NCBI RefSeq assembly: GCF_038502225.1
Contig: NW_027195520.1
Coordinates: 1-64,000, forward strand
Source: Cherax quadricarinatus
Taxonomy: Eukaryota > Arthropoda > Malacostraca > Decapoda > Parastacidae
Reading direction: 5' to 3'
DNA length: 64,000 nt
Shown: piece by piece, positions 1,463 through 56,341 of the stretch
Layout of the letters: every line of letters begins with the position of its first letter
How positions within the stretch are numbered: position 1 is the stretch's first letter
Notes under the pieces: model-generated
The model's database searches: none
What the model was told of the DNA's origin: nothing
The model's input: only the letters and a program-made list of their open reading frames with translations
Made by a program: the position numbers and the translations under genes

Positions 1463-1846
1463 GTCAGCGGATGGGTCGGTTCTCTGAACCATTCATCTAC
1501 AAACCTGTCAGACACTGCAACTTCTTGGGATCTTAATACTTGGGAATTCTTCGCTTGCCTAATTCTTGGGCACGACCTACTTCGACATTGAACAAATGTT
1601 ACACGACCTATGACTTCTGCACCTCTCCTGCCAACGGTTTATAAGCTCCTTCTCAGCACGTATGCCGTATTCTATTCAAGATTGATGGACTGACCACATC
1701 GACTCAAGGTTGAGGGACTGATTACCTCATTCTCCTCCTGTTCTTCAAGATTCTCCTTTGTATGGACTGATGAAGCCACTGTGTGGCGAAACGTTTCCTC
1801 AATAAAGATACCCAAGAGTTGCACATGTGTCTAATTTATCAACAGG
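1463..1846 (+). mobile_element. Penelope-related non-autonomous unit with hammerhead motif
   Basis: A unit starting at GTCGGTTCTCTGAACC (1475-1490) and running through a hammerhead motif to an AATAAA-containing end (about 1800) and GTGTCTAATTTATCAAC. The same unit recurs on the minus strand at 2301-2750 and in diverged form at 27012-27262 and 38802-39450. It sits between the RTE fragment and L1/Tx1 coding sequence, so it interrupts the L1/Tx1 copy. No protein is encoded. The assignment to Penelope-like elements is inference from the hammerhead in the repeat and from Penelope-type RT remains elsewhere in the window. Confidence 0.7.
1764..1798 (+). ncRNA. Hammerhead ribozyme motif (type I-like, minimal stem III)
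   Basis: Order on the plus strand: GGA (stem I), CTGATGA (core), one extra A, GCCAC-TGT-GTGGC (stem II), GAAA (core), C/G and A/U as a two-pair stem III, then GTT followed by TCC, which pairs with GGA. Stem III has no proper loop, so a monomer would be weak. The palindromic GAAACGTTTC would favour a dimer, as known for hammerheads of Penelope-like elements. The unpaired A before stem II is a deviation from the classical core. Activity is not shown by sequence. Confidence 0.7.
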
Positions 1847-2288
1847 TAACATTACAACCTCTCTCCTCAGCCAATCGCACCTTGAACCCCACAAAAAGTT
1901 AAACACCCATCTCAGAATTTCCACAATCGCCGTCCCTGTTATTGGGAACACGGCTGCTACGTGCCAAACCTTACTATACAATAATACATTTATTACAATC
2001 ACTCTTTGCACGAGAGTCAGATGATGAGGTCGCAATGCACCCAGACGCCCCAGAATCCTTTCCATCAATCTATTTGAGTTTTCCTCTCGAGCAGCGTCCA
2101 AGTCATCCTTATAGATAATACCACAAATTTTTAAAGACACCGTTTGTTTCCTCACGAAGTTACATCTCCCCCCCTCCACCCAATCACCCAACCCCATGAC
2201 CATTGACTTCTCACTATTTACCTGCATCCCTGTTGCACTTCAAAACAATTGCACAACATCATCCCAAACCCCCAACACCATCCCTTCC
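1847..2288 (-). pseudogene. L1/Tx1-like LINE ORF2, C-terminal part
   Basis: Minus-strand reading gives the region after the RT domain of an L1/Tx1-type polymerase: an LSLKICGI-like block, LMERILGRLGAL, then FNFLWGSRCDWLRREVVMLP, the FxWG...LP signature typical of L1-group proteins after the RT. It continues the coding sequence at 2878-4950 once the insertion at 2301-2865 is removed. Coding is lost at 1847, where the next hammerhead unit begins. Inactive fragment. Confidence 0.75.
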
Positions 2289-2877
2289 CAAACCAAGACT
2301 TCAATAGAATACGGCATATGAGCGGAGAAGGAGCTTATAAACCGTAGACAGGTGAGGGGCAGCAGTTGCAGGTGGTGTCACATTGTTCAATGCGGAAGTA
2401 GGTCGTGCCCAAGGGTTAGGCAAGTGAAGAATTCCCAAGTATTAAGATCCCAAGAAGTTGCAGTGTCTGACAGGATTGTGGATGAATGGTTCAGAGAACC
2501 GACATGTTGTTGAATTAGACACATGTGCAACTCTTGGGTATCTTTATTGAGGAAACGTTTCGCCACACAGTGGCTTCATCAGACCATACAAAGGAGAAAC
2601 TTGAAGAACAGGAGGAGAATGAGGTAATCAGTCCCTCAGCCTTGAGTCGATATGGTCAGCCCATCAATCTTGAATAGAATACGGCATATGAGCGGAGAAG
2701 CAGCTTATAAACCGTAGACAGGTGAGGGGCAGCAGTCGTAGGTGGTGCCACAGACACTGCAACTTCTTGGGATCTTAATACTTGGGAATTCTTCACTTGC
2801 CTAACCCTTGGGCACGACCTACTTCCACATTGAACAATGTGACACCACCTACGACTGCTGCCCCTCAAACCAGGACT
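2289..2877 (-). mobile_element. Penelope-related insertion with 12-bp target duplication
   Basis: CAAACCAAGACT (2289-2300) and CAAACCAGGACT (2866-2877) flank 565 bp and differ at one base, so they look like a target-site duplication. Inside, the minus strand carries about 1.4 head-to-tail units of the hammerhead repeat (2750 to 2301), and 2752-2865 repeats the beginning of the unit in plus orientation. The duplicated site lies in the RT gene of the L1/Tx1 copy, just after its YVDD box. Partial tandem plus inverted copies are a known arrangement for Penelope-like elements. Confidence 0.75.
2551..2585 (-). ncRNA. Hammerhead ribozyme motif
   Basis: Read on the minus strand: GGT, CTGATGA, A, GCCAC-TGT-GTGGC, GAAA, CGTT, TCC. 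Identical to the motif at 1764-1798 except that stem I keeps only the two G-C pairs (the closing pair is U-U). Confidence 0.65.
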
Positions 2878-4950
2878 GTTGTATCGTCTACATATCCTAT
2901 TATTCCAGGCCACACTTTCCCTACCTCCCTCTCACCCCCACTCATGTTACATACACAACGTTCAACCATTCTATAGAAGGGGTCCTGAATGCACACAAAC
3001 AACATTTGTGACATGGGACACCCCTGCCTAAGTCCCCTACCCATTACAATCTTCTCCCCCAAGCATCCATTAATCTGTACCCTAATCTTAGCTCCTTTGT
3101 ACAACGTGGTTACCCAATTAACTATTTCTTCCCCATAACCCTGCCTCCCAAGTATAGTTTCCTCTCTGTCATAGGGCCCCTGCCAGTCTAAAGCCATCAA
3201 CGCCGCCCCCCTCCCCCCTTTTGACTCCACAAAACTTCTCAGTATTCCATGACCTTCAATCATCGACCTTCCAGGCAATCCATACTGCGTTTTCGAAACC
3301 ACTCTCCCTACGACACATTTAAACTTATTTCCCAAGACTTTAGCAAACAACTTATAATCTGCACATAACAGCGATATGGCATGGTACTCCTTGAGGGTGT
3401 GTTGCCCCTTACCCTTCGGGACCAACACTACAACTGCTGTTGCTTGCTTGTCCCCCTTCACACTCTTCTCCATCATCTGATTTAATAACCTAACCATGAA
3501 ACCCCTTATCACCTCCCAATGTTGTAGATAAAATTCAGCCGGGAGACCGTCTATTCCTGGTGCTTTGCCCTTCCTCATTCCCCTTAAGCCAACTCTATTT
3601 CCTCCTCCGTTATCACCCCTCCTAAAGCCTTCCTATCACTATTCCCTAAATTACATGTCACTTACTCACCTTCTCTAAAGCCACATTCCCCACCCTCCCA
3701 CTTGTCCAATACCCTTCATACCGTTTATCCGCATATGCACACATTCCTTTCGTAGCTCGTATCTCCTGACCTACCATATAACCTCCCGCCATCTCATGTA
3801 CCTCTAACCTCGGAATAGCTGTAACCTGCTGCCTTTGTTTTTGACGTCACAACATACACGCTGATGGCTTGTCTCCCCAAAGCACCTCTTCTACCCCTGC
3901 CTGCATCCTTACCCCTTGAAACCTCTCATTTTGTAACTCCCTCAGTCTCCCCTTGACCTCGACAATTTCATCCATAGGATAGTTGCCCCACACAGCCCCC
4001 TGCCCATAACAACCCCTTAACCTGTCCTCTAAATAATTTGAAAGTCCATATTTTAAATTATTTATACGTTTACCCTCCCTCACATAATATTTCCTAATCC
4101 TTTCCTTGGCTACACAATCCCACCATTTCACGACATCTTCCACCCCCTGTGCATCCTTGCTAAGCTCCTTCCCTAGGACAGAAAATCCCACTAACCCATC
4201 CTCATCACTCAATACACTTATATTTAATTTCCAGTAACTCCTGTATATTTCCGCAAGCGCCTCCCACCCAACCTCCACCAACACTGCTCTATGATCCGAC
4301 CATGCTACTTCAACAGTTTTGAAAGATCGCACTACAACCCCGTGAGAAAGATACACTCTATCTAACCTCACTGCATACCCTCTCCTAACAAACGTATGCT
4401 CTGTCTCCCACGCTCTCCCCTCAAATGCGTCCCCTAACCAAATATCCCTAATTAAATCTCTTCGGGACACTGACACATAGCCTGCCCCTTTCGGTTCCAC
4501 GTCAGCCCTCCTAATAACGCAGTTCCAATCACCTCCTACTATTGCCACCTCAGGTAAAAAAACACAAGGTCCTCACACACAAAACTCCTGCTTCACCTGT
4601 ACGTTATTCTTTGCAGGCGCGTACACGCTTATAAAGGCCACACGTTTGCCCATCCACCAACCATCCATGCACAACACCCTTCCCCCTCCCCCCTAACTTC
4701 TCTGCAAAACAAACGGGTTCGCCTCCCTAATTAGTATACCCACCCCTCCTTTCAAACGGGCAGATGGCAGTGTTACCACCTGAAACCCTGCCACCTCCAA
4801 CACCCTACCCTCCTTATAATTATGCTCCTGAAGGAACACAATATCCACTCTAAATTTATTCAGAAAAATTCTAAACCATTCTCTCTTTACACTATTACAC
4901 AAACCATTAACGTTTACTGTCATACACCGGAGGCCTATTAAAGTTTCCAC
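2878..4950 (-). pseudogene. L1/Tx1-like LINE ORF2: endonuclease and RT
   Basis: Polymerase of a target-primed retrotransposon. Reading right to left: endonuclease start (4923-4696; MTVNVNGL, FLQEHNY), endonuclease C-terminal half (4548-3847; GGDWNCVI, LDRVYLS, WSDHRAVL) and RT (3578-2878) with KAPGIDGLPAEFY, a fingers block, LRQGCPMS and YVDD. Frames change between the blocks (about 4690-4550 and 3846-3579), so the copy is dead. L1/Tx1 placement rests on the KLFAKVLGNKFK and VPGR-like RT blocks and the FxWG motif further on. ORF2 opens overlapping the end of ORF1 (4950 against 4938). Confidence 0.8.
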
Positions 4951-6103
4951 CCCTGCCTCCTCTCTTCATTCTTCCGATGGGCACCTGAACTTATGGGTCC
5001 ACTTGTCACCTTCACACTTCCCTCTATCTGCCCGCCCTTCTTTTGGTGCCTCCTGTCATGGCCACCACTACCTTCACCTTCTGCCCATATTTGCTTCCCA
5101 GGCCGCTGCGCTGGCGTTAGGACATCATCGGAATCCGACGCAGCGGCCCTCTTTCTTGTGACAATCGCATCCTCCATAGCTTGGTCTAGGGATGCCTCAC
5201 AATGTACCTCAACCTCCACTGTACACTCTTTCAATAATCCTGGTGACACCTCAGTCACGCTGCCACTCCCGTTGTCCAGATAGTTCTCCTGTTGTTGATG
5301 CACCGCAGCAGTCAACTCGTCATCTACCACCTTTCCAGGTGCAGCCTCCTCCTCAGGCGGTGACAAGGACTTCAGCACCTCAGCTAATTCCTCCTCAATT
5401 TCCAACACTTCCTCATCCATTATCTCGCTCCATAGACGACCACGCCCTCCTTCACGCCGTTGAACATCACCTGCTCCCTCCTGTATAGAAGCGGATGCCT
5501 CCGCCTCTGGACCAGGAGCTCGTTGCCGATCCCGCACGCCGCCGCTATGTGATCATATTCCCCACATAGTCGGCATGTACGTCTTTGCCCGGCATACGAA
5601 ACCATGACCTGTATCGTGAATTCCTGTAGGTACATGTAGGACGGTACAGGGTGTCGTAATGTCATTTTTAGGTTGAAAGTGCCTTCCGGCAGACCTGCAT
5701 AGGCACCCGTCACCCACGTACCATGCTGGGCCAAATGAACAGCTCCATATTCCTCAAAAACTTTTCTGATGTCTGTCTCATCAGCCTCAAAGGGGACATT
5801 ACGCAGTTTGATCCATGTATAATGCCTGGATACATAAATCATCCTCACATGAACAGCTGGTGTTGCATCAAGACTTACGTCTTGAAAACGGTTGACCAAC
5901 GATTCATAGACCGTTGCTGAGAGCAGTTTCACAAGAATTCTATGTGCTCCGTTTATGGCTACCCCATACAACTCTCTATCCTGAATGCCATACGTCTCTC
6001 TGATGATTTTAGGTAGTAATACCTGGGCTGAAACTGGCGTTATTGCCTCTCGGAGAAGCTCAACGCCGACAGTGTTGATCCTGCGTCTATGACTAAACGC
6101 CAT
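4938..6103 (-). pseudogene. L1/Tx1-like LINE ORF1 with CCHC knuckle
   Basis: RNA-binding ORF1 protein. From ATG at 6103: an N-terminal region, an RRM-like segment (YTWIKLRNVPFEADETDIRK), then one zinc knuckle CRLCGEYDHIAAAC. The frame is lost near 5530 and resumes in another frame through an acidic, low-complexity tail that ends at 4938. The second copy (61384-62577) has the same order and the shared tail block SDSDDVLTPAQRPGK, which confirms the joined reading. One frameshift is the only obvious lesion. Confidence 0.8.
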
Positions 6104-14925: not shown

Positions 14926-15195
14926 TTTTAACCCCGGAGGGTTAGCCACCCAGGATAACCCAAGAAAGTCAGTGCGTCATCGAGGACTGTCTAACTTATT
15001 TCCATTGGGGTCCTTAATCTTGTCCCCCAGGATGCGACCCACGCCAGTCGACTAACACCCAGGTACCTATTTGCTGCTAGGTGAACAGGACAACAGGTGT
15101 AAGCAAACGTGTCGAATTTTTCCACCCGCCGGGAATCGAACCCGGGCCCACCGTGTGTGAAGCGGGAGCTTTAGCCACCAGGCCACCGGAAGAAC
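14926..15195 (-). mobile_element. tRNA-derived SINE
   Basis: Read on the minus strand: a tRNA-like head with an A-box-like TGGCCTGGTGGCTAA and a B-box-like GGGTTCGATTCCC, then a body with GGTACCTGGGTGTTAG and GGGTCGCATCCTGGG, then a 3' part GGACCCCAATGGAAATAAG ... TTGGGTTATCC. The boxes would make it a Pol III transcript. The body recurs at 26100-26375, and the 3' part recurs in an L2-like LINE 3' UTR at 28575-28710, so the LINE could supply the reverse transcriptase. Confidence 0.8.
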
Positions 15196-17144: not shown

Positions 17145-17147
<3 letters not shown>

Positions 17148-27011: not shown

Positions 27012-27262
27012 TGAATTTGGCGAAACGTTTCCTCCTCCTTCGCCTTACCTGATTACAGTATAAAAGCCACTGCTACGGCCCTGTATTGTACTTTCTACAA
27101 GATTGATGGACTGAACACATCGACTCCTGGCTGAGGGACTGACTACCTCAAACTCCTCTTCTCCTCATACCTTCCTGCTTTGTATAAGACTGATGAAGCC
27201 ATTGTGTGGTGAAACGTTTCTTCAGTAATGATTCCCATATGTTGCATAAGTGTCTCAATTCT
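27012..27262 (+). mobile_element. Penelope-related unit with hammerhead motif
   Basis: Starts at GGCGAAACGTTTCCTC, then TATAAAAGCCAC, CAAGATTGATGGACTGA and GAGGGACTGACTACCTC as in the unit at 39060-39450, and ends GCATAAGTGTCTCAATTCTTCAAC. Missing the start of the full unit. It lies 5' of Penelope-type coding remains. Confidence 0.7.
27186..27222 (+). ncRNA. Hammerhead ribozyme motif with covarying stem I
   Basis: AAGA, CTGATGA, A, GCCAT-TGT-GTGGT, GAAA, CGTT, TCTT. Stem I is AAGA/TCTT here, against GGA/TCC in the copies at 1764 and 39343. Stem II keeps five pairs using two G-U pairs. Confidence 0.7.
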
Positions 27263-27399
27263 TCAACTAGTGGTAGTAGTAGTAGTAATAGTAATATTAG
27301 TTTTAGTAGTAGTCGTAGTAATACAATATGGTAGAACACTCAACTTGCACATGAGTAAAGGTATAAAAGCTATTACTTGGGTAGCATAAAAATAGGTCA

Positions 27400-27735
27400 G
27401 ACAAATATTGGTGGGTTGGATTCAAGAAGGTCTGTTTCAGCGTTCCTCTTCTATAATGTGCCCGAGTAGTATTAGCAGCAGAGACTATGTGATGGCAGGG
27501 TTTACTATTTTCAGGTTTCTCGCTAAAACTTCAGAGATGGTGAAGCTGCCTTTATTTTGCTTAATTGTTTTAGAAACGGCGATTAATGCTGATTTAAAGC
27601 ACTTGCGTTTGCAGAAATTAGGTTCTTTGATCACTAATCGGGAGTCCCTGAATTTCGTGGGATGACTGGAGGAATTTTGGAATTTTTGTTGAATGTTGTT
27701 GGGTTCGTATGTGTACTGGTCTTTCAAAAGTTGGA
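27400..27735 (-). pseudogene. Unknown open frame, possibly Penelope C-terminal region
   Basis: The minus strand is open for about 80-110 codons (KEPNFCKRKCFKSALIAVS, GSFTISEVLARNLK). Such C-terminal sequence could follow the GIY-YIG endonuclease of a Penelope-like element, and it lies between a hammerhead unit and a Penelope RT fragment. I see no GIY-YIG motif itself, so the function is not assigned. Confidence 0.35.
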
Positions 27736-27821
27736 GACACTCACCAAAGATTTCCTATATAAAACCAGACAAATACTGAGAGGCACTAGTGGAGGGAAGA
27801 AACTTATGTACTAGATACCCA

Positions 27822-28129
27822 GCAAACCTAAACTAGCACTCTCAGACGTATCACATCAGGTATAGGCAGTGCACCACACAAACTAGCCGGAGTTCTTGCC
27901 AAACATCTTTCCTGCCTTCTGGGGCCCATCAGCTCCGCTCATCTTAAGCATTCAGGCGACCTTCCCAACATCATCCGAAACTTCTCCATCTGTAACAAGA
28001 AACTCAGCAGTTTGGACATGACTTCCCTTTTCACTAAAGTAGGTATCACACAAGCTATCGACGTTCTACGAAATAAAATCAATCAGGACCTTAATCTTCC
28101 TCTACCTCCCGTAGATTATGTAGACCTAT
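27822..28129 (+). pseudogene. Penelope-like element, RT fragment
   Basis: In one frame from about 27840: ITSGIGSAPHKLAGVLAKHL, LLGPISSAHLKHSGDL, then KLSSLDMTSLFTKV and VDYVDLY. The SGIGSAPHKLA block and the motif-A-like (L)DMTSLFTKV are characteristic of Penelope-like reverse transcriptases. The rest of the RT and any GIY-YIG domain are missing. The fragment stops where the palindromic element at 28130 begins. This is the only RT of the type thought to mobilise hammerhead-bearing repeats seen in the window. Confidence 0.75.
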
Positions 28130-28311
28130 ACACAAATAACCCGCACATAGAAGAGAGGATCTTACGACGACTTTTCGGTCCGACTTGGACCATTTACAAA
28201 GTCACACTTTGTAAATGGTCCAAGTCGGACCGAAACGTCGTTGTAAGCTCCTCTCTTCTATGTGCGGGTTATTTGTGTATCGTTCCAGTCACGGTATTGT
28301 GCCTTATTTAA
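28130..28311. mobile_element. Palindromic hammerhead-like element (family GTCG)
   Basis: Arms 28130-28201 and 28207-28278 (72 nt each, few mismatches) around a 5-base centre, then a tail ATCGTTCCAGTCACGGTAT-TG-TGCC and a T-rich end. The right arm carries GGTCC-AAGTC-GGACC, GAAA, CGTC, that is hammerhead stem II, core and a GTC site. The CTGATGA box is not recognisable. The same family is at 47863-48056. No target duplication is visible here. Confidence 0.75.
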
Positions 28312-29099: not shown

Positions 29100-31640
29100 T
29101 TATTCAATAATTCAATTCAAAGTTTATTCTCTATAAGGATTACAATGCTGAGTTTACAGAATTTGGTTACTGTGTGGTTTACATGTAGCAAAATAATAAT
29201 TACAGAGGGTACCACTAGAACACCTAGCATGGCTAGGCATTTCGGGCAGACTTAGATTAATTCTTAAATTTGTTAAAGTTGTTTTATGGCTAAGTGACTA
29301 AATACTAATTTGTGAATTTAGCAATGTGAATGCTTTTGTTTTGGCACAATACATAGTTTCAGTATTGGAGTATCACAGGCCAACTTATGACTAGTTAGGA
29401 TTCATTATTTTAAGATTGATATTGATATTTCTGTTTATGGTCAAATGGGTGAGTGAGTGTAAGTGTGAACCACCAGGTGATATTCATGTAATTAGTTGAC
29501 GGGGTGTATCAGGGAGTCAAGAAATCGTAATGACACGATTGCAAACAAACCATACCCCCGGCCGGGATTGAACCCGCGGTCATAGAGTCTCAAAACTCCA
29601 GCCCGTCGCGTTAGCCACTAGACCAGCTAGCCACAATAAGATTCATCCAATTAGGTATATTTCTACACCATAGGAAGGTTAGCACAGGCACCTCTGTGAC
29701 CACAAATGCAAGTTTTTACAGACGAATCTCCAGCTAGCTGGAGGTTTTTACAGACGAATCTCCAGCTAGCTGGAGATTCGTCTGTAAAAACTTGCATTTG
29801 TGGTCACAGAGGCGCCTGTGCTAACCTTCCTATGGTGTAGAAATATACCTAGTTGGATGAATTTTATTGTGGCTAGCTGGTCTAGTGGCTAACGCGACAG
29901 GCTGGAGTTTTGAGACTCTATGACCGCGGGTTCAATCCCGGCCAGGGGTATGGTTTGTATCAGGGAGATAAGATGTTTTCTAATGGTAGTTTTGAAGGTG
30001 ATGAATATGTCTGCAGTTCTAGAGTTTTCAGGTAGGGTGTTCCAGATTTTAGGGCTTTTGACATACATTGAATTTTTGTAAAGGTTTAGTCGGACACGGG
30101 GAATGTCATAGAGATGTTTGTGTCTGGTGTTATGCCTGTGGGTTCTGTCACAACTATCAAGAAAACGTTTTAGGTCAAGGATAATATTGGAATTTAAGGT
30201 CCTGTAGATGTAGATTGCACAGTAGTAAGTGTGGATGTACTGAACAGGGAGTAAGTTTAGATCTATGAAAAGTGGGGAGGGGGGGGGGGATGTTGCCAGG
30301 GATGGGATTTAGTGATTATTCATAATGCGGCTTTTTGTTGGGTTATTATTGGGTTTAGGTGTGTTGCTGCAGTTGATCCCCAAGCACAAATAGCATAGGT
30401 GAGGTATGGATAAATAAGTGAGTGGTATAGTGTGAGAAGGGCATTTTGCGGCACATAGTATCGTATCTTGGAGAGGATCCCAACCGTTTTGGATACTTTT
30501 TTGGTTATGTGTTGGATATGGGTGCTGAAATTCAGGGTGTTGTCGAGGTATAGGCCTAGGAATTTGCCCTCATTATGTCTGGCAAGTAGAGTGTTGTTGA
30601 CCTTAATGTTAATTTGTGCAACTCCTGCTCTGCTACCAAACATAATATAGTAGGTTTTGTCAGTGTTAAGCGTAAGTTTATTGGCTGTCATCTAAGTCGA
30701 TATTTTGATCAGCTCCTCGTTAACAATGGTGTTGAGGGTGGCAAGATTAGGGTGAGAGATGACATAAGTCGTGTCGTCAGCAAAAAAGAATGGAGTTCAG
30801 GTGTTGTGATACGGTTGGAAGATCATTGATGTATATGAGGAGGGGTTGAGAAGAGCAGGGGACCAAGGACACTTCCCTGCGGAACTCCAGTATCAAGTGG
30901 CCGTGTTGTTGATGCTGTGTCTTTAATGGTGACATACTGATACCTATTAGTAAGGTAAGATTTGAAATATGCAAGCGCATGGCCTCTTATACCATAATGG
31001 TCAAGTTTGTGGAGTAGGATGCCGTGGTCTACTGTGTCAAAAGCTTTTCTTAGGTCAATAAAAATTCCTAGTGGATATTCCTTATTTTCCAGTGCTGTGT
31101 AGAGCAGATCTAGCATTTTTATGATTGCATCATTAGTGCTTTTATTTTTCCTGAATCCAAATTGACAGGGGTTGAGTATGTTTTGTGCCATTATAAATGA
31201 ATATAGTCTCCTGTGCACGAGTTTCTCAAAGATTTTGGATAGCAATGCTAAGTTTGATATTGGCCTATTGTTCTTTAAATCTGTAGGGTCACCACCTGTA
31301 TGTATTGGTGTAACCCTTGCCATCTTGAGTAGTTTCGGGAAGGTGCTAGTTTCTAGTGAATTGTTAAAAAGTAATGAAATAGCATGCGAAAGGACATGGG
31401 CCGCTCGCTTGTACAATAATGGTGGGACATGAGACAGATTCCCTGAGTTATTTTTAAGTGGCTTTATAATCTCGGTGACTTCCGTGGGCTCAGTTGGTGC
31501 AAGATAGAAGGAATTTGGGAAATTCCCATCTAGGTAGTCCCCGGCATGGGGATTGGTACATGGGATTTTATGGGCGAGATTAAATCCTATGGTTGAGAAG
31601 AAGTCGTTTATCTTGTTAGCTGTGTCAGACATAAGATACA
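29100..31640 (-). pseudogene. L2/CR1-like LINE, 5'-truncated, RT and 3' UTR
   Basis: RT begins inside the linker at about 31640: DTANKINDFFSTIG, NNRPISNLALLSKIFEKLV, CQFGFRKNKSTNDAI, FIDLRKAFDTVDH, GVPQGSVLGPLLF. A frame change follows near 30880, then FADDTTYVI-like sequence, LTLNTDKTYYIMF, FLGLYLDN and WGSTAATHLNPI (30691-30320), and the end at about 29990 (PKIWNTLPE, FKTTIRKHL). The 3' UTR (29500-29100) ends in TTGAATTGAAT-type repeats. The 439-bp palindrome (29517-29955) is inserted just past the coding end. Dead copy. Confidence 0.8.
29507..29967. mobile_element. 439-bp palindrome with tRNA-like arms, 10-12 bp target duplication
   Basis: TGTATCAGGGAG occurs at 29505-29516 and 29956-29967 and brackets the insertion. 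Inside, two long arms (about 200 nt each) face each other around CCAGCTAGCTGG. The outer part of each arm is tRNA-like: on the right arm, TGGTCTAGTGGCTAACGC (A-box-like) and GCGGGTTCAATCCCGG (B box plus T-arm pairing). A direct TTTTTACAGACGAATC repeat at the centre makes it slightly asymmetric. Not a normal tRNA gene, because the acceptor stem does not close cleanly. Head-to-head SINE dimer or fold-back element. Confidence 0.75.
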
Positions 31641-33499
31641 TGAGATAAAAGCATAATAATGACGGCAAAAATAATAATGTGTGATTGTGGAAATTTTATA
31701 AGTTTACCTGTATGAACTTTGTTCTTACATTCATACAAATAATTTCACTGGGAGGTGACATCCATATATTGTTTGCAGTAGTTACCCCGTGTAGACGTAT
31801 AGGAAAACATAAGTCATTCCTGGTCGCTGCAAGTAACCCCTTCGACATCCCAAATCTTAAACACATCTGTCCTGGACCAGTATTATAGATTAAGGTTGGA
31901 TAACACCAATAGACAAATTAGTTGTGGACTGTATGTATAAAAGAAGACCAACACTTACCCGATGATTGGTGGTCACTGGAGATCTTTGTAAAGCCCACAG
32001 TACCTGTCCTGTTATAACGCCTAACTGGCCAGTTATGAGTCTTATGTAATAAGAAGGTTTACTCAACTGTGGGCGGGGAGGCAGCATCCCATATCTTTAT
32101 TTCCTCCTCTGTCGAGAGGTCCTGCCGAATCGATGAGATTCTTCTTCCAGCAGGGCTATTATATCACCCTGTTGTCTCGACTGAGAGAAGGAGACTGAAA
32201 AACCTCCCTCTCGGAACAGGACTGCACGGTTACATGTGCTTCACTCGAAGAATGGCGACTCGTTTCTCTTTACACATTCTTTTAACTAAGTGTTATTATC
32301 ACTGATTTCACTACAATTCACAAGACGACTTAGTGTTCCATTAATGTACACATGTTAGTGGTTGATACATTAAGATCTGAGCCCGATGAGTGTCGATTGA
32401 ATAGTCGGATATTCTCCCCAATGAACTTGTTCATCATGGCATTATTGCTTCGTTTACTAATTTCCGTTGTTTCCACCCTATTATTACGGTTTCGACGACT
32501 TACTGTCCCAAAATATGTGCCGAGAACAGTTACAACACTTCCTATTATGAAGAGAGACCACTAATCACGTTTCGGTCGTCGGAACCGCCAATTTCCTGGT
32601 TCCATGTTAATGGGGGTACCGTGTCATAGGTCTATGCTCCACGAGACTGCCCATGCATGCCCAAGCCTCCCTTCTCGGACCCCAGTGCATGCACAGGGCT
32701 TCTCTGTTGGTTCTCTTCTACCTTCAAATACATTTTTTGACCAACAACAACAACACATCAATTACATATTTACATGATACAATATAAGTATGAGAAAATT
32801 ACACCAGAATTTTCCACAGTGCTTTTATACCGGAGAGTGAAGGCATCGGAGACCTTTGTCTAGCTTTGTTCCTGCTTATAGATATACGGTTTTCTCTATT
32901 TCCTTTATGGTGTACTCAAAGAAAACGGTATTTCAACCCTGGAAACACTTAAAAATCCCTTACAATGCGTAGAAAAAGCCCAAAATAGAACGACTTCAAG
33001 AATCTTTTTACGTAAATGAGGTGTGCGCACTTTACCGCGATTATCTCAAAAGTAAGATTTTAGCCTATTGCTTGCCATACCTCCATTACTAAAGATTAGA
33101 TTGAAATGATTTTCATAGGGAACATAAAACAAAGTGCGTTTGATTATCGTGTGTAACAAAATTTGGAATATCTCAAATGTTTTTTTATTTTGTGGGGAGT
33201 AAAAAGGCAGATATTTTGGTTAGTGTCAAAAGCGCACCAACTGTATCTTTTTAGGCATAAAGGTAAGCTATCTTACATTCACTGACTTCACATGTAATTC
33301 GGGTTAGATATATTCTACGAATGGGGAGTGTCCGCAGCGCCGCTAGTATCGTGAAACCGGATGGACTGGCTGCCAAATGTCAAAATCAGTAATGATTTTT
33401 TTCTCAGGTGTTTGTTGGCCGATCTTATTGAAACTTTGTCAAATCATTCTAAACATATGCTTTCAAATGCAGGCCGAAAATAAAAGAAGCGGACGACAA
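31641..33499. other. No gene seen
   Basis: Mixed AT-rich sequence. A TATAAAAG at about 31936 stands alone. Open frames of 65-80 codons (31685, 32069, 32352) show no family resemblance. CAACAACAACAAC at about 32740. A hidden LTR cannot be excluded, but I see no paired ends. Confidence 0.45.
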
Positions 33500-38074: not shown

Positions 38075-38124
<50 letters not shown>

Positions 38125-38786: not shown

Positions 38787-38842
38787 ACAATTTTAATCTT
38801 GAAGATTGAGACACTTACGCAACATATGGGAATCTTTATTCA

Positions 38843-38877
38843 GGAAACGTTTCGCCACACAGTGGCTTCATAAGTCC
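38843..38877 (-). ncRNA. Hammerhead motif, core mutated
   Basis: Minus strand: GGA, CTTATGA (G5 to T), A, GCCAC-TGT-GTGGC, GAAA, CGTT, TCC. The core change should abolish cleavage. Confidence 0.6.
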
Positions 38878-39342
38878 AATACAAAGTAGAAAGGCGTAAG
38901 GAGAGGAGGAGTTTGAGGTAATCAGTCCCTCAGCCTGGAGTCGATGTGCTCAGTCCATCAATCTTGTAGAATGTACAGCATAGGGCCGTACACGTGGCTT
39001 ATATACTGTAGTGAGGTGTCTCATAAGTGCCTCAATCTTCAACTTGTCGGTTTTTCAAACCATTCATCACAACTGTCAGACACTGCAACATCATGGGATC
39101 TTGTTACAAAGAATTCTTCAACACTTGTCCAACCTTTGGACGAAGACCTACTTCGACTAGTGGATGGTACCACTATGACCCTACCTCCTCCTGCTTCACC
39201 TCACCTCACTATAGTATATAAGCCACGTCTACGGCCCTATGCTGTACATTCTACAAGATTGATGGACTGAGCACTTCGACTCCATGCTGAGGGACTGATT
39301 ACCTCAAACTCCTCCACTCCTTACGCCTTTCTACTTTGCATT

Positions 39343-39377
39343 GGACTGATGAAGCCACTGTGTGGCGAAACGTTTCC
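39343..39377 (+). ncRNA. Hammerhead ribozyme motif
   Basis: GGA, CTGATGA, A, GCCAC-TGT-GTGGC, GAAA, CGTT, TCC, followed by AATAAA. The intact-core copy within the complete element at 38802-39447. Confidence 0.7.
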
Positions 39378-39462
39378 TGAATAAAAATTCCCATATGTTG
39401 CATAAGTGTCTCAATCTTCAACTTGTCGGTTTTTCAAACCATTCATCACAATTTTAATCTTG

Positions 39463-43381: not shown

Positions 43382-43425
43382 GAACCCTTACCTGCAGATT
43401 TCAGGTATCTTTATCATTGCCAATC

Positions 43426-47850: not shown

Positions 47851-48068
47851 AATCAAATTGGTACACAAATAACCCGCACATAAAAGAGAGAAGCTTACGA
47901 CGACGTTTCGGTCCGACTTGGACCATTGACAAAGTCACAGTGTGACTTTGTCAATGGTCCAAGTCGGACCGAAACGTCGTCGTAAGCTTCTCTCTTTTAT
48001 GTGCTGGTTATTTGTGTATCGTTCCAGTCACGGTATTGTGCCTTTTTTTGTTTTTTAATCAAATTGGT
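47851..48068. mobile_element. Palindromic hammerhead-like element with 12-bp target duplication
   Basis: AATCAAATTGGT at 47851-47862 and 48057-48068. The insert is 194 bp: arms 47863-47939 and 47941-48017 (77 nt each, one mismatch seen) around a single G, then a tail with CGGTAT-TG-TGCC and a T-rich end. The right arm reads GGTCC-AAGTC-GGACC, GAAA, CGTCGTCG: hammerhead stem II, GAAA core and a GTC site, with the CTGATGA side unrecognisable. Confidence 0.85.
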
Positions 48069-49440: not shown

Positions 49441-50904
49441 TCATAATGATGGGCAAATTCTCCATATTTCCTAGACTTTTGGGACTCCCTGAAGCTGACG
49501 GCTGCCCCTCCTTCCTCTCTGGTATATTGGAGATAGGTATCAGCCAAGGTAGATGCACAAGTGAAGTCCCACACCACCTGTTTACCGTCTGTCCAGGCTT
49601 GAAGTGTGATACCATCTGAACGCTTCTGGCTGCCATCAGATCTGCATAGTTGGGGTGGCTACCTTACTGCTGGGCATCCGGTTGTTGTGAGGCTCCTCTT
49701 GATAATGTATTTAACCTCCTCATATCTTGCAATCTTTCCCTCGAATTTACTGTACACAAGACCATGGTACCCGAATCGGTCTACTGCTTCACTGCCACAA
49801 ATACACCTGTGTTCGGCGAGAATAGCGGCGGCAAGTCGAAGGGCAACACCAATGTGGATGGTCTGTGGGTTGAGGCGTGTGCCAAGCCTGGAGTTGGGAA
49901 TAGCCAACAGCAAGTCCCATGCATGAGGAGCTCTCACTGCCAGGAGGCGGGCTCTATCCTTCCCTGACACACTCTGAAGCATTGTTGAGGTAATATTCTC
50001 CTCTACTGGGCCATCCCAGTGCGACCGTTTGTAGTTGTTGCGGGAGCAGGTCTGATTTCAGAGCCTGTTAGATTATCCCAGATCGTGGCTTCGTCATTGA
50101 GCTTCTGGCCATGGACTCTAGTCTTGTCCCTAAGATGTTCAGCAGGAATCGCTGCTACAAGCCCTCTGGGTGCAACGCATGAGGACAGAAAAGCATATAG
50201 CTTAATCTGTGATTGACTTTTGGACACCAATGCCTCCTAGTCTGACTGGAAGTGTAGCTTGGTTCCACTGCCCGGCTTATAGAGTAAGGTTAAGTACTTT
50301 CTTAAAAATCTGCTTCAGGATACTGTCATATTCGTGCAGTATAGGGTTATCATAAGAAGGTGCACATCTTAGGAAATATGTCAACCTGCGTAGACTCAAG
50401 CACTTTGTGAGAAGGTACAAGGCGTCGTGGGTGTCAAGATTGCCTATTCGTTGCTCCATTCTCCCCAACTCTTCCATTTCTTTCTAAGAATGGCGTCGCT
50501 TCCCAGAGGTGCTCCAAGCAAGACGCTATTTGTAGGGGCAATGACTGATGATCCTGGTAGTTTGGATCTCACTGCATTTATCACTTGTTGACTGGCCGTG
50601 ATGATTTCACATTTGGAGGGATTCAGGATGAGACCCATTTCCTGTTCCCGTGTCATCACCTGTGTAAGATCATCTAGGAAGGACTCCTTTGTACCTGCTA
50701 GTGTGCCATCATCCAGGAACCAGATGTTTAGCTCACTGGTCAGTCTGACTGTGATTTCCCTAACTGCTATACAGAAGAGAAGTGGTGCAAGAGGATCCCC
50801 TTGCTGGACACCCTCTGATGATGTTATTTCATGCTTTCCAAACAGAAGCATTGATTCCTTGCTATATCCAGCTGAAACAAAGACGAAGAGACCAGGGTAA
50901 TGTT
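49441..50904 (-). pseudogene. RT with probable restriction-type endonuclease (R2-group style)
   Basis: Minus strand, several frames: RT core (50900-50444) with SSEGVQQGDPLAPLLF, IWFLDDGTLAG and LNPSKCEI, then LLGAPLGSDA, ALYLLTKCLSLRRLTYFLR, RLGGIGVQ-like sequence (about 50240) and LLAVPNS-like blocks. Near 49600 it reads KRSDGITLQAW ... VVWDFTC. The spacing of RxD and WD resembles the PD-(D/E)XK endonuclease found C-terminal to RT in R2-like LINEs, with P changed to S here. Stops and frame changes throughout. The RT start is cut by the hammerhead unit at 50905. Confidence 0.6.
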
Positions 50905-51078
50905 CTTCTCCAGACTGAGGGACTGACCACCTCAAAACTTCAAGGGTGATGGACTGATTACATCATCTTCACGTCTCTTCTATCAACTTTTCGGTATTCG
51001 ACTGAAGAAGCTTACTGTGTAGGCGAAACGTTTCGAAATAAAGATACCTAACTGTTGCATATGTGTCTAATTTAACAA
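50905..51078 (+). mobile_element. Penelope-related unit with hammerhead motif
   Basis: Contains GACTGAGGGACTGACCACCTC and GATGGACTGATTACATC as in the longer units, the hammerhead, AATAAAG, GTTGCATATGTGTCTAATTT and ends TGTTGGTAT-TTT-ATACC (about 51066-51083). Inserted between the RT at 49441-50904 and a CR1 copy. Confidence 0.7.
50997..51037 (+). ncRNA. Hammerhead-like motif, five-pair stem I
   Basis: TTCGA, CTGAAGA (core T7/G8 region altered), A, GCTTAC-TGT-GTAGGC, GAAA, CGTT, TCGAA. Stem I is TTCGA/TCGAA and stem II GCTTAC/GTAGGC: both differ from other copies yet remain paired. Confidence 0.65.
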
Positions 51079-51503
51079 CCTGTTGGTATTTTATACCATT
51101 TTAGTATTCACATTGCATCAGTCTATTCAAATCATCCTGGAGTGCTCTAGTGTCCTCATTAGAATGAATTGGACAGCCTATTTTGGTGTCATAAGCAAAT
51201 TTGCTTATGTCGCTATTTATTCCCTCATCTACGCCGTTTATGTAAATTGTGAACAACAACGGGCCCAACACTGACCCCTGAGGAACATCGCTTGCGACAT
51301 GCCCCCATTCTGATTTCTCCCCATTTATGCAAACTCTCTGCTGCCTATTTGTCAGTCATGCCTCTACCCAAGAAAAATTTCTCCTTCTATTCCGTGTGCC
51401 TTAAGTTTCCTCAATAGTCTCTGATGTGGAACTCTATCGAGAGCCTTACTGAAGTCCATATACACAATATCAAATTCATTACCATGATCTATCCCCTCAA
51501 ACA

Positions 51504-51704
51504 CCTCAATGAAAAATGTGGAAAAAGACACTTATGTACAGTTCAGGACATTTATTAGAGGAAACGTTTCGCCACGAGTGGCTTCTTCAGTCCTAATACG
51601 CCACTCGTGGCGAAACGTTTCCTTTAATAAATGTCCTGAACTGTACGTAAGTGTCTTTTTCCACATCTTGTCGGTATCACCATACCATTTCCTCAATGAA
51701 AAAT
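51504..51704. mobile_element. Palindromic hammerhead element, 14-bp target duplication
   Basis: CCTCAATGAAAAAT at 51504-51517 and 51691-51704. The insert is 173 bp: arms 51518-51582 and 51600-51664 (65 nt, about two mismatches), tail TGTCGGTAT-CACC-ATACC. The minus strand holds a hammerhead: AGGA, CTGAAGA, A, GCCAC-TCG-TGGC, GAAA, CGTT, TCCT. The plus-strand arm keeps only stem II to stem I 3' side. Confidence 0.9.
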
Positions 51705-51999
51705 ATTAGTAAATTCGTAAGGCAGTAACGCCCCTTTGTAAAACCTTGTTGAGATTCATTAATCAGTCTGTGCTTATCAAGATGGCTACGAATTACTTCG
51801 GCAATTATTGATTCCATAAATTTTCCCACTATGGAGGTAAGGCTTATTGGTCTACAGTTCGAAGCCAAGGACCTGTCACCTGCCTTGTAAATAGGTATTA
51901 CATTTGCCATTTTCCACTTATCAGGCACTATGCCAGTTTGTAGTGATATGTTAAAAAGATTAGCCAAAGGCATGCTAAGTTCCTCTTTACATTCCTTTA

Positions 52000-52205
52000 A
52001 CACCCTTGCAAACATGTAAAGTAAAAGGACACAAGTGCAACTAATGTGACATATTATTGTGGCAACGTTTCGCTCTCCAGGAGCTTGATAAAGCTCCTGG
52101 AGAGCGAAACGTTGCCACAATAAAATGTCACATTAGTTGCACTTGTGTCCTTTTACTTTACATATTGTCGGTAATTCTACCAACTTTATTACACTCTTGC
52201 AAACA
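52000..52205. mobile_element. Palindromic hammerhead element, 15-bp target duplication
   Basis: ACACCCTTGCAAACA (52000-52014) and ACACTCTTGCAAACA (52191-52205), one mismatch. The insert is 176 bp: arms of 72 nt (52015-52086, 52091-52162) around GATA, then tail TGTCGGTA-ATTC-TACC and a T-rich end. The plus strand reads TTGATAA, A, GCTC-CTGGA-GAGC, GAAA, CGTT: a hammerhead with a degenerate first core box. Confidence 0.88.
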
Positions 52206-52485
52206 GTTCATCAGGGCCTGGGGATTTGTTAGGTTTTAGTTTCTCTATTTGTCTGAGGACCATGTCACTAGTTACTGCAATCGTGCATAGTTTATTATTG
52301 TCCTGTTCTACATAATCTATTATTTCAGGAATATCGCTAGTATTTTCCTGGGTGAAAACTGAGAGGAAGTAGGTATTGAGAATTTCACACATATCCCTAT
52401 TCATTAAAACTGTCTTCGATTTTGTAAAATTTACTAAGTTTTCCATCCCACCTCCAGTAAGCTCCACCCTGCATGGTGCAGTTAT

Positions 52486-52796
52486 AATACGGATGAATCA
52501 TACTATTATCATCAAAGTTTCATTTATTTGTAAGGGCATTTAGAGAGGCAACTACACAACTGATTCACTATTTTCGAGCTTGTTTGTTCATATGACGTAA
52601 AAGATCACTCTTCTAGTTATTCATGTGGATATTTAGAGACACTGAACTGTTTTATACTTAACTCTCAATACTTATCCCTACCACCCAAAACCACTGACTC
52701 CCCACCACTCACACACACAGACACACACACACACGCACACGCACACACACACACACACATACACTCACTTTTACACATTTATACACTCATATATAC
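52486..52796. other. No gene; (CA)n microsatellite
   Basis: (CA)n with CG interruptions at about 52712-52762. Otherwise AT-rich without coding signal. Confidence 0.7.
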
Positions 52797-53135
52797 ATAA
52801 GAACATAAGAAAGACGGAACACAACACTGCAGCAGGCCTACTAGCCCATGCGAGGCAGGCCCAAGTCTCCTACTGGCTTAAGCCAATGCCCCAACTTAGT
52901 CAGGCCAGGTCACATTCACTTAAAGAAGGAACACACCAACTGACCTAGCAGCACAAGCTAGTCAGGTCCAACTCACACCCACTCATATGAACACAAGAAC
53001 ATAAGAAAGGAGGATCACTGCAGCAGGCCTGTTGGCCCATGCTCGGCAGGTCCTTTACAATTCATCCTGCATAAGAACATAAGGACATAAGAAAGGAGGA
53101 TCACTGAAGCAGGCCTGTTGGCCCATGCTCACAGT
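52797..53135 (-). mobile_element. Three consecutive CR1 3'-end fragments
   Basis: Three times on the minus strand the sequence ends in TTCTTATG repeats, preceded by GGCC(A/T)...GGCCTGC blocks: about 52797-52985, 52988-53072 and 53073-53135. The same end closes the CR1 copies at 57925 and 62907. All three lie in one orientation, opposite to the CR1 ORFs that follow. 8-bp tail repeats are a CR1 hallmark. Confidence 0.75.
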
Positions 53136-53232
53136 TTGTAACAATCAGTTTGTGACGTGTACTTAGCTCAGTGGTGACATGTACTTAGCTCTGTGAAGAC
53201 CTGTTTGCGCGCTCTCTACGAATTGAAGCAAG

Positions 53233-54069
53233 ATGCCCTCCATCGAGCAACTTTACCAACAGCTTAAGGAAGAATTGAGGATGGCGAAGATGGAGATTCG
53301 GCGACTGACCGAGGAAAACAAGAAGATTCGTAGTAATCCTCCTGTTTTGAGTCCTCAGGTCAAGAAAGGAAACTGGTCAGTGGCTAGACAGCAGGGAACG
53401 AAGTTGACGATCAAGAAGACGAATGGAAAGGTAGAAACGATGAAGAAGAAAGAGACTGCCGTGCAAACTGTTGTGGAAGCATCTAATACATTCTCAGTGC
53501 TACCCGACGAATGTGAGTCGACTACTGGGAACGTCACGACGAACGACATCAAGGAAGGTAAGAATATTGTTGTTGTTGGGGATAGCCAAGTTAGGTATAT
53601 GGATAGGGCGTTCTGCTTGAAGGACAGGAGTAGGAGACAGAGAGTTTGCTTTCCTGGGGCTGGGATGGAGGATATTGTTAGCCGTCTGGATGACATCATG
53701 AGAGGTAATGGGAGCAATCCTATTATCTGTCTCAGTGCTGGAGGCAACGATGTTGGCAGACGTAGGAGTGAAGACCTGATTAGCAGGTATAGGTCACCAA
53801 TAGAAATAATTAGGAGTAAGGGTGGGAACCCTGTCATAAGTGGTATTTTGCCAAGGAGGGGAGTTGGAAATGAATGGTTGTCCAGGGCAATTGGTGTCAA
53901 TTGCTGGCTGGACAAATACTGTAAGGAAAATGCGGTAACATTCATTGACAACTGGGACCTCTTCTATGGCAGAAATGACATGTATGCCAGGGATGGGGTT
54001 CACTTATCTAGGTCTGGGGTGGTAGCACTGGCAACTGCAGTGGAGGGAGCAGTTAGGACTTTAAACTAG
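53233..54069 (+). CDS. CR1 ORF1 with SGNH-type esterase domain
   Basis: 278 codons, intact from ATG 53233. N-terminal coiled coil (residues 5-35: LYQQLKEELRMAKMEIRRLT), a basic linker, then an SGNH/GDSL-like domain: GDS at residues 116-118, GGND at 169-172 and DGVH at 254-257, supplying the Ser, Asn and Asp/His positions. Esterase domains in CR1 ORF1 proteins are established; their role in retrotransposition is not settled. No CCHC or PHD finger is present. ORF2 starts 15 bases later. A second, partial copy of this domain is at 61000-61292 (minus). Confidence 0.88.
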   Translation: MPSIEQLYQQLKEELRMAKMEIRRLTEENKKIRSNPPVLSPQVKKGNWSVARQQGTKLTIKKTNGKVETMKKKETAVQTVVEASNTFSVLPDECESTTGNVTTNDIKEGKNIVVVGDSQVRYMDRAFCLKDRSRRQRVCFPGAGMEDIVSRLDDIMRGNGSNPIICLSAGGNDVGRRRSEDLISRYRSPIEIIRSKGGNPVISGILPRRGVGNEWLSRAIGVNCWLDKYCKENAVTFIDNWDLFYGRNDMYARDGVHLSRSGVVALATAVEGAVRTLN

Positions 54070-54083
54070 GAATAGTTAGTGGT

Positions 54084-56341
54084 ATGGGTTTTGGCAGGAA
54101 AACAGTGAAGTCCCAGTGTAGTAATATTACGAGTTCTAGGGGAACAAGTAATAAGCAGAATGAGGTAGATATTGAAAAGCCAGGGACTTTGGGTGATAAG
54201 GACAGTAACAGGTTTAGTAGAAAAACAGAAATGAGCAGGAAGGGTAAAGAGAAAGGAGAGTCTTTCAATGTTTATTATGCTAATTGCCGTAGTGCTAGGA
54301 ATAAGATGGACGAGTTGAGATTAGTTGCTAGTGCAGGTAACATTGATGTATTTGCCTTAAATGAGTCGTGGTTTAATTCAAAAAGTCGGGACATGCCTGC
54401 GGAATGTCATATTCAGGGTTTCAAATTGTTCCAAGAAGATAGAAGTATTGGGAGGGGGGGTGGGGTGGCACTGTATGTCCGAGATCGCTTGAACTGTTGC
54501 ATAAAAACGGGTATTAAGTCTGAAGTAACACATACAGAGTCTGTTTGGATAGAATTTTCAGAGGGGCATGAAAAACTGATTTTAGGAGTGATATACCGTC
54601 CCCCAAACTTAGATAGGGACCAAGGGAGACTACTGTGGGAAGAAATTGTTAAGGCCACAAGGCACGATAATGTAGTAATTCTAGGAGACTTTAACTTTAG
54701 TCATATTGATTGGAATTTCTTGACTGGGAATTTGGAATCATACGACTTCTTAGAAGTAGTTCATGATTGTTTTTTGAAGCAGTTTGTGACAGAACCTACA
54801 AGGGGAAATAACCTGCTTGACTTAGTTATGGCAAACAATGAATCCCTTGTTAATAATTTAGAAATTTCAGAGGAACTGGGTGCTAGCGACCACAAATCAA
54901 TTACATTTAGCATTGAATGGAAGTACGATAGTAGCAATAACTCAGTAACAGTCCCAGATTTTCGCTTAGCAGATTACGATGGGCTTAGAGAACACTTATC
55001 ATCTGTTGACTGGGGTAACGAAGTGAGCTATCAATATGACAGTTTTCTGAACACTATACATGCTGCTCAAAGAACGTTTATCCCATATAAAGAAATTAGA
55101 TCAAATAGAAATGACCCAAAATGAATGAATAATAGGCTCAAATATCTACTAGGGCATAAGAAAGGAATTTATAGGCGTATCAAAAGAGGTGAGGGTCATC
55201 TTATGAATCAGTATATTGACATTAAGAGGGACATTAAAAAGGGGATAAGAAAAGCTAAAAGGGACTATGAAATTAAAGTTGCTAGGGATTCTAAAACTAA
55301 CCCAAAAAGTTTTTTCCATGTCTATAGAACAAAAGTTAGAGATAAGATAGGTCCCCTTGAAAATAACTATGGGCACCTTACTGACAAAGAGAATGAAATG
55401 TGCTAAATTTTTAATAATTATTTTCTCTCAGTTTTTACACAGGAAGACACTAACAATATTCCAGTAATTAATTTTTATAGTGGGCTAGAAGAAGATAAAT
55501 TATGTAACATCACAGTCACTAGTGAAATGGTTGTGAAGCAGATAGACAGACTGAAGCAAAATAAGCCGCCGGGTCCTGATGAGGTTTTTTCAAGGGTTCT
55601 TAAGGAATGCAAAATGGAACTCTGTGAACCATTAACTAATATTTTTAATTTATCTCTTCAAACAGGTGTAGTGTCTGATATGTGGAAGATGGCTAATGTA
55701 ATTCCTATTTTTAAAACAGGGGACAAGTCGTTACCGTCAAATTACCGCCCAATAAGCCTGACCTCAATTGTAGGCAAATTACTAGAGTCAATTATAGCTG
55801 AGATTATAAGAAGCCATCTCGATAAGCATAGCTTGATTAATGATACTCAGCATGGATTCACAAGAGGCCGGTCTTGTCTAACTAATTTATTAACTTTCTT
55901 CAGTAAAGCTTTTGAGGCTGTTGACCACGATAAAGAATTTGATATTATTTACTTAGATTTTAGTAAGGCTTTTGATAGAGTTCCGCACCATAGACTGTTA
56001 AAGAAATAGGCAGCTCATGGCATTGGGGGAAAAGTGCTCTCGTGGATCGAGTCATGGCTCACTGACAGAAAGTTAAGACACATGTGCTACATCTGGATAT
56101 CTTTATTGTAGACGTTTCGCCATCCTATTATGTCCTAGAATCTGTATTGATAAAGCCACTGGATGGCGAAACGTCTACAATAAAGATATCCAGATGTTGC
56201 ACATGTGTCTTAACTTTCATATTGTCGGTATTTTATACCTTTCTTGCACTGACAGAAAGCAGAGAGTGTCCATAAATGGGGCTAAATCCGAGTGGGGATC
56301 TGTAACAAGTGGCATTCCACAGGGATCAGTCTTGGGCCCGT
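54084..56341 (+). pseudogene. CR1 ORF2: endonuclease and first half of RT
   Basis: ATG 54084. Endonuclease: YYANCRSARNKM, LNESWFN, IYRPPN, LGDFNFSHIDW, SDHKSITF. In-frame stops at 55122 (TGG to TGA, the sister copy has Trp), 55404 and 56007. RT blocks: NKPPGPDEVFSRV, NYRPISLTSIVGK, HGFTRGRSCLTNLL, LDFSKAFDRVPH. At 56073-56246 a palindromic hammerhead element is inserted. Coding resumes to GSVLGPLF at about 56335, where it jumps back to an upstream part of the RT (next entry). Confidence 0.85.
56060..56259. mobile_element. Palindromic hammerhead element, exact 13-bp target duplication
   Basis: CACTGACAGAAAG at 56060-56072 and 56247-56259. The insert is 174 bp: arms 56073-56125 and 56161-56213 (53 nt, one mismatch) around a 35-base centre, then tail TGTCGGTAT-TTT-ATACC and TTTCTTG. 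Centre plus right arm read TGTA, TTGATAA, A, GCCA-CTGGA-TGGC, GAAA, C, GTC, TACA: stem I TGTA/TACA, stem II, GAAA and a classical GTC site. The first core box departs from CTGATGA at two positions, so cleavage is doubtful. Excising insert and one duplication restores the CR1 frame (LTDRKQRVSING). Confidence 0.93.

Follow-up and report, generated by a model that had tools for sequence, protein, structure and literature searches.

Predicted minimal hammerhead ribozymes in short Penelope-like repeat units of Cherax quadricarinatus

The first 64,000 nucleotides of contig NW_027195520.1 of the decapod Cherax quadricarinatus (assembly GCF_038502225.1; hereafter, the window) hold nine hammerhead-like sites on both strands, the first base of the box lying at 1767 (+), 2582 (−), 27190 (+), 38874 (−), 39346 (+), 51002 (+), 51590 (−), 52085 (+) and 56147 (+), in agreement with an initial annotation that had placed at least nine there. 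We regard it as very probable that these are minimal type I hammerhead ribozymes (as predicted from sequence) residing in units of the pseudo-long terminal repeat (pLTR) type from endonuclease (EN)-positive Penelope-like elements (PLEs), and that the units are mostly ~280–475 bp copies without an open reading frame (ORF) that probably moved in trans.

All nine sites follow one order (that is, stem I, box, an extra A, stem II, GAAA, C–G, U, H and the returning strand of stem I), with GAAACGT unchanged throughout and GUU, GUC or GUA at the predicted NUH cleavage site. As the initial annotation had noted, one additional A stands between the box and stem II in every site, stem III amounts to an A–U plus a C–G pair with no loop, and each of the stem I pairs quoted there (GGA/TCC, AAGA/TCTT, TTCGA/TCGAA, AGGA/TCCT and TGTA/TACA) is present. 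An extra A at the same place occurs in a viroid hammerhead. The sites, the extra A and the stem I pairs of that annotation therefore stand, but the CTGATGA-like box described as common to all does not, nor do two of the stem II examples. A CTGANGA box together with stems I and II (that is, the core of a type I hammerhead) is found at five of the nine sites (1767, 27190, 39346, 51002 and 51590); site 38874 has lost G5, site 2582 opens stem I with a T·T mismatch, and sites 52085 and 56147 carry TTGATAA (U3/A8 replacing C3/G8), the former with stem I reduced to two pairs. Of the stem II examples, GCCAT/GTGGT keeps its pairing through two one-sided G·U wobbles instead of a paired change, and GGTCC/GGACC sits in two fold-back insertions (28.2 and 47.9 kb) where the hammerhead is reduced to its 3′ half and the CTGATGA box is missing. 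AATAAA begins 3–6 nucleotides (nt) past the predicted cut in eight sites (for example, 1801–1806; it is missing at 27190), so that a poly(A) signal adjoins the cut, and cleavage and polyadenylation may compete. A further GACCGAAACGTGATTAG stretch at 32574 (−) resembles the decayed 3′ half of a hammerhead from another family.

Sequence comparison beyond the window indicates that the fold has been under selection, stems I and II and the core pair 3–8 appearing to be conserved through paired change. A wide descriptor applied to 194 kb around 20 genomic insertions gave 103 hammerheads of several families (labelled F1, F2 and so on), and 11 distinct hammerheads from six families, aligned on fixed anchors, provided 99 cells for a covariation analysis. 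Paired cells made up 97.0% of these, against 71.9% after shuffling, and the covariation score was 0.758 against 0.256; none of 500 shuffles reached the observed value, a count that is not a probability because the rows are related, and a control that retains this relatedness (partners slid by 1–3 columns) left 34–53% paired. Seven of the nine pairs vary on both sides. In exact permutation tests, the observed value was reached in 2 of 40,320 permutations for stem I, in 48 of 40,320 for stem II and, at a modest level, in 720 of 40,320 for the core pair by family; stem II in the window copies alone is weak (24 of 720 and 2 of 24 permutations). The core pair 3–8 is C:G in 74 and U:A in 29 of the 103 genomic copies and mixed in none, as seen through a descriptor that admits either C or U at position 3 and either G or A at position 8, demands GAAACGT and is blind to other core variants; at the family level this represents one or two switches, not 29. 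The genomic families thus support the suggestion that the paired changes reflect selection for RNA structure in several sub-families: in the 11 distinct sequences, stem changes are compensated beyond chance, the reverse of which was one of the two outcomes named as refuting that suggestion. In a PLE of the anole, C3G or G8C singly abolishes cleavage and the two together partly restore it, according to the mutant data described in PMC11167929; this rescue makes a natural U:A at 3–8 plausible chemistry.

CTGATGA by itself is poor evidence for a hammerhead: it occurs 22 times in the window against 12.57 expected, 2 of 100 shuffles reach 22, and most occurrences lie outside hammerheads. The whole descriptor (stem I of at least three pairs, CTGANGA, at most one extra base, stem II of at least four pairs, GAAA and UH) is strong evidence, with five matches in the window against none in 98 and one in 2 of 100 first-order Markov sequences, which rules out a chance origin of the sites. 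The search for the Rfam hammerhead that the initial annotation had proposed gave no significant match, an outcome named there as refuting but accounted for by the missing stem III: none of 4,227 Rfam models reported a hammerhead in the window even at E 10 (nor on rescanning 1600–2700), the monomer having two pairs, no loop and no closed stem such as the type I family has. A covariance model built on five F1-type copies (R1) recovers four non-training window sites (E 8.9e-12, 3.6e-10, 8.7e-8 and 7.8e-6). A structure-free model (R2) likewise recovers window copies; bit differences between the two were left unused, as the models differ in mode and weighting. Sub-threshold Rfam matches to MIR821, mir-297 and others were rejected as long inverted or simple repeats, and viral contigs scanned with three patterns gave no match. 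A conserved peptide was also discarded as an explanation: in F1 the ATG of the box opens a 12-codon frame that runs to the TAA of AATAAA (by eye), and the boxes of F2–F6 have no ATG.

The hammerheads lie in units of the pLTR type that combine a TATA box, the hammerhead, AATAAA and a tail hairpin, frequently with target site duplications (TSDs). Unit length is 370–371 bp in F1 (G+C content 46%), 400–474 bp in F2, 412–419 bp (once 309 bp) in F3 and 282 or 371 bp in F4. Among 407 F1 candidates, 40 were scored, and these 40 full-length matches are 98–100% identical, which suggests that F1 is young. RNAalifold on six copies recovered two stem-loops upstream alongside stems I and II; in the first window copy the upstream elements are as follows.

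1638–1646, plus strand: TATA-like motif, its start 129–131 nt from the hammerhead box in five copies
1682–1702, plus strand: stem-loop SL1, loop GACTGACCA, upstream of the hammerhead (RNAalifold consensus of six copies)
1711–1729, plus strand: stem-loop SL2, loop GACTGATTA (RNAalifold consensus of six copies)

The loops of SL1 and SL2 are conserved as GACTGAnnA, both here (1682–1729) and at the equivalent place in five other copies, and in copy 51002 their stems GATG/CATC and GAGG/CCTC have swapped position; the two are possible protein-binding sites. Downstream of the hammerhead lie a conserved GTTGCA..GTGTCT block (13–14 of 15 positions in five comparisons) and the tail hairpin. SL1, SL2 and the tail hairpin show one or two changes each, which are individually not significant.

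The connection to PLEs rests on the protein-coding copies and on the marks of the units themselves. A search of the genome (3.95 Gb, 7,334 contigs) for GIY-YIG gave 14,992 candidates, of which 150 were scored and every one exceeded the curated cut-off; visual inspection showed close minus-then-plus pairs, in the head-to-head order of the units, at 27 places or more. The plus copy of a locus on one contig (C19; L053) contains an open frame with reverse transcriptase (RT; RVT_1, 2.2e-10) and GIY-YIG (6.2e-8) domains, and at this one locus an F4-type U3/A8 hammerhead lies both before and after the frame (L052 and L051; E 1.4e-5 and 5.8e-7), with the same tail hairpin after each. The first ATG is ~107 nt past the GAAACG of the first hammerhead, and fragments 90–100% identical to this frame (75% for one 20-residue piece) occur at L023, L031, L032 and L034. 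The ORF with both domains was seen at C19, the one such locus read; the window has an RT fragment and units without an ORF. That fragment (27686–28128, plus strand) is directly followed by a GGTCC/GGACC fold-back and goes unseen by Pfam in the ORF at 27832–28308. The 60 of 72 window ORFs of at least 130 residues that were scanned with Pfam gave no GIY-YIG, their matches being to RT, endonuclease, RNase H, GDSL lipase and a few weak unrelated families in a window rich in RT and endonuclease ORFs of the non-LTR type; GIY-YIG was likewise absent from 10 scanned frames of the 221 of at least 120 residues at 20 genomic loci. The units match the published marks of PLEs: their pLTRs are described as carrying hammerheads (PMC7761336, PMC6155905), and an inverted pLTR, a tail of ~30–40 bp (31 bp) on one repeat, a TSD, a TATA box and partial tandems are reported in PMC3846280.

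The insertions in the window, with the RT fragment, are these.

1475–1847, plus strand: ORF-less F1 unit with hammerhead 1757–1816, core intact; 89–92% identical to the minus copy (blastn); R1 89.5 bits (training copy)
2299–2867, minus strand: F1 units in partial tandem and inverted, hammerhead 2533–2592 on the minus strand (first stem I pair T·T)
27018–27272, plus strand: F1b copy with hammerhead 27179–27239, core intact, stem I AAGA/TCTT; its start lies within stem II sequence
27686–28128, plus strand: PLE RT ORF fragment; tblastn to residues 234–284 and 299–394 of the C19 frame at 45% and 72% identity
28129–28309, plus strand: fold-back insertion of the GGTCC/GGACC family, 3′ half of the hammerhead only; no TSD found; right end placed by eye
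38802–39447, plus strand: head-to-head insertion with hammerheads 38825–38885 on the minus strand (G5 lost) and 39335–39395 on the plus strand (intact)
47863–48056, plus strand: fold-back insertion of the GGTCC/GGACC family; 12-bp TSD 47851/48057; 39-nt tail
50903–51107, plus strand: F2-type copy with intact hammerhead 50991–51052, stem I TTCGA/TCGAA; R1 51.4 bits, E 8.9e-12 (non-training)
51518–51690, plus strand: fold-back insertion with an intact hammerhead on its minus arm (51551–51594); 14-bp TSD 51504/51691; 26-nt tail
52015–52190, plus strand: fold-back insertion with hammerhead-like 52074–52134, U3/A8 box; 15-bp TSD with one mismatch; 28-nt tail
56073–56246, plus strand: fold-back insertion with hammerhead-like 56141–56194, U3/A8 box, stem I TGTA/TACA; 13-bp TSD; 33-nt tail

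A tail of 26–39 nt on one repeat was found in six of the seven window insertions tested (one right end by eye), and TSDs flank five window insertions, a score of 12 being reached by 7 of 400 random windows. In the head-to-head insertion at 38802–39447, for example, the duplication is 38787–38801/39448–39462 and the 29-nt tail is confined to the plus copy. The F1 copy at 1475–1847 terminates just short of the tail with no TSD found, the F2-type copy at 50903–51107 has the tail hairpin and also no TSD found, and the insertion at 2299–2867 has a weak 12-bp flanking repeat (2289/2866, one mismatch). Another fold-back, of uncertain type, is suggested at 29698–29805 by a long inverted repeat with a AGCTAGCTGGAG centre and weak matches to microRNA models.

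Elsewhere in the genome, an arm consists of up to ~4.8 units placed head to tail, and two arms meet head to head. In all 18 two-arm F1 insertions counted, the outer ends lie at unit positions 59–64 (before the tail) and 86–94 (the tail end), and families F2, F3 and F4 end at points corresponding to these two. Left out of the count were L029, which leaves the locus; L024, which has the junction of L049; L035, whose arms are separated by 730 bp; and the composite L032. The last three match the two-end footprint as well, L032 at its outer ends; L031 was retained, although 1.5 kb, including a PLE fragment, separates its arms. Inner arm ends differ by 6–171 nt in 17 of the 18 and by 5 nt or less in one (without L031, the outer-end and inner-end counts become 17/17 and 16/17), so that the arms look like separate complementary DNAs (cDNAs) and not one snapped-back strand. 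Outside the 18, the single-arm insertions L026, L034, L037, L043, L045 and L050 have the pre-tail end only. L026 and L043 share unit ends and may be duplicates; in L034 and L037, arms from different hammerhead families adjoin, possibly as chimeric insertions from two RNAs. Flanking duplications at a score of at least 11 accompany 12 of the 20 genomic insertions, whereas 35 of 470 control placements reach that score, and 10 of the 12 are 11–17 bp long, the other two (L039 and L049) lying within longer local repeats. The account of the anole enzyme in PMC11167929 describes two RT start sites in vitro, one on either side of the tail, cutting and extension of both DNA strands, and no strand difference in start site; the genomic arrays assign one start site to each arm, which goes a step beyond that account and is unexplained by it.

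On these grounds we propose a route in which a TATA-type promoter in each unit would transcribe tandem units, and the hammerhead, having no stem III of its own as a monomer, would pair with that of another unit through ACGT and cut after GU(U/C/A), as is reported for PLE hammerheads. A PLE protein with RT and GIY-YIG domains would then open the target with a stagger of ~11–17 bp, cDNA would be primed on both strands from the two fixed points that flank the tail hairpin, and two independent, often multi-unit cDNAs would be joined head to head. The layout of these points is observed, and the enzyme is presumably of the C19 type, which may move F1–F3 in trans; the templates would be circles or multimers.

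The stem III strand ACGT is a palindrome unchanged in all nine window sites, so that two copies could share a stem III of four pairs; this fits dimers, and in cofolding all four ACGU bases enter an intermolecular helix in five of eight window copies (2582, 38874, 39346, 51002 and 51590). That the fold cuts as a dimer is a model-based expectation, and several observations weigh against it or against the wider proposal. The predicted dimers are mostly driven by a longer 10-nt palindrome, GAAACGUUUC, which would tie up core bases and rival the active core. In the minimum-energy fold of the monomer, four of eight window copies have no stem I; the other four form both stems, around an open core in 38874 and 51002 and a partly paired one in 1767 and 39346. 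Single-copy folds are unremarkable (z −0.9 to −1.3, four folded). Within 3 nt of the predicted cut there is no inner end among the 42 (0.8 expected by chance), which argues against cut linear monomers as the usual template. The insertion at 2289–2877 lacks the tail signature, 8 of the 20 genomic insertions are without a duplication scoring at least 11, and hammerheads of F1, F2 or F3 were not found around any ORF, F4 being the only family tied to one.

Other explanations share part of this evidence. The units could be animal non-LTR retrozymes, in which a hammerhead-excised monomer becomes a circular RNA and an RT rounds the circle to yield tandem arms; this is compatible with an origin from PLEs as far as the enzyme is concerned and differs in the template, and we consider it a genuine possibility while leaning against it. 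The units are short, non-coding and tandem, as retrozymes are, their sizes (F1–F4, 282–474 bp) are near the 170–400 nt given in published descriptions, and arms several units long would follow from a circle. Unit divergence is 0.85% inside one insertion (without the composite L032) and 1.95% between insertions, and in L048 seven variant sites are common to all passes with none mixed. A linear multimer transcript would, however, yield the same arrays, and the 27 insertions examined have 76 mixed against 42 fixed variants (27 of the 76 are seen again elsewhere, 11 of them within the duplicate pair L024/L049); the low divergence is compatible with one circle as well as with a uniform multimer, and the mixed variants keep it from deciding between the two. 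The hammerhead here is also of the minimal PLE kind, the stable stem III that PMC7761336 describes for type I hammerheads of invertebrate retrozymes being absent from the window sites, and the units carry TATA boxes, whereas animal retrozymes are said there to be promoterless. A fuller scenario we find doubtful, namely that the ORF-less repeats are genuine retrozymes, their circular RNA copied by a two-strand-priming Penelope enzyme with two fixed starts, and that, in addition, compensatory change has turned the 3–8 pair in the hammerhead core of an open, recently multiplied PLE from C:G into U:A with activity retained.

That the hammerheads are passive relics, their pairing inherited with a palindromic DNA repeat and the RNA unselected, seems highly improbable. 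The near-identity of the young F1 copies, the altered cores or stems in four of the nine window copies and the insertion in vitro of hammerhead mutants of the anole PLE (as reported in PMC11167929) would suit it, but the pairs that change jointly between families include core 3–8, which a DNA palindrome would not keep; against the distant copy 51002, moreover, the linker before the hammerhead is 19–31% identical and SL1/SL2 77–89%, the hammerhead itself being 60–68% identical with columns shifted by one in the same alignment. Scarcely better, and still improbable, is the view that the fold-back copies are DNA transposons or arose by snap-back self-priming of one cDNA, for which the near-perfect palindromes at 52011–52166 and 47862–48018 and the self-priming proposed for a rotifer Penelope (PMC3846280) may be cited. 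Duplication length varies and one outer end lacks a tail, and simple snap-back would not leave the inner ends as far apart as they are in 17 of 18 insertions, although it may hold singly (for example, at 52011–52166).

Similar repeats may also occur in transcripts of decapod crustaceans. The minimal hammerheads of PLEs and their expected dimer cleavage are already published (PMC7761336, PMC6155905). Those hammerheads (including the work of Lunse, Weinberg and Breaker 2017) resemble the present ones in being type I without a stem III loop, in lying in PLE terminal repeats and dispersed non-coding copies, and in the expectation of dimer cleavage; as far as the descriptions in these two papers go, they differ from the ones here, which have the extra A, both C:G and U:A at 3–8 and AATAAA 3–6 nt past the cut. 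Poseidon PAc of Anolis likewise has a pLTR hammerhead, a tail between two RT start sites and both strands cut and extended, but its ORF is described as beginning at stem II, unlike the frame on C19, and the arrays here pair both start sites in every counted insertion (compare PMC11167929). The Penelope of Adineta vaga shares the inverted pLTR, the tail on one repeat, the TATA box, the TSD, partial tandems and insertion into a non-LTR element, yet is reported at very low copy (PMC3846280), whereas there are at least 40 near-identical ORF-less F1 copies here, often arranged as head-to-head tandem arrays. Animal non-LTR retrozymes as characterized in PMC7229834 share short, non-coding tandem units and a type I hammerhead, and differ from units with a PLE-type minimal hammerhead, their own TATA-like motif and a tail hairpin. 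To what is known, the present data add the U3:A8 core, ORF-less units of 280–475 bp and footprints that fit two-strand priming from two starts; among the titles and abstracts listed in searches of mainly open-access literature, none dealt with a U:A core or with paired start-site footprints.

The role and activity of Penelope minimal hammerheads are called a mystery in PMC7761336. Several families within one genome, with compensatory change down to a pair of the catalytic core, indicate that the fold is important, and the ends of many young insertions record where RT started and stopped; together they make testable the need for cleavage and the use in vivo of two-strand priming and circular templates by Penelope enzymes. 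Apart from these elements, the window contains a marginal tRNA-like match at 15121–15192 (−), with 29.2 bits against a cut-off of 29.

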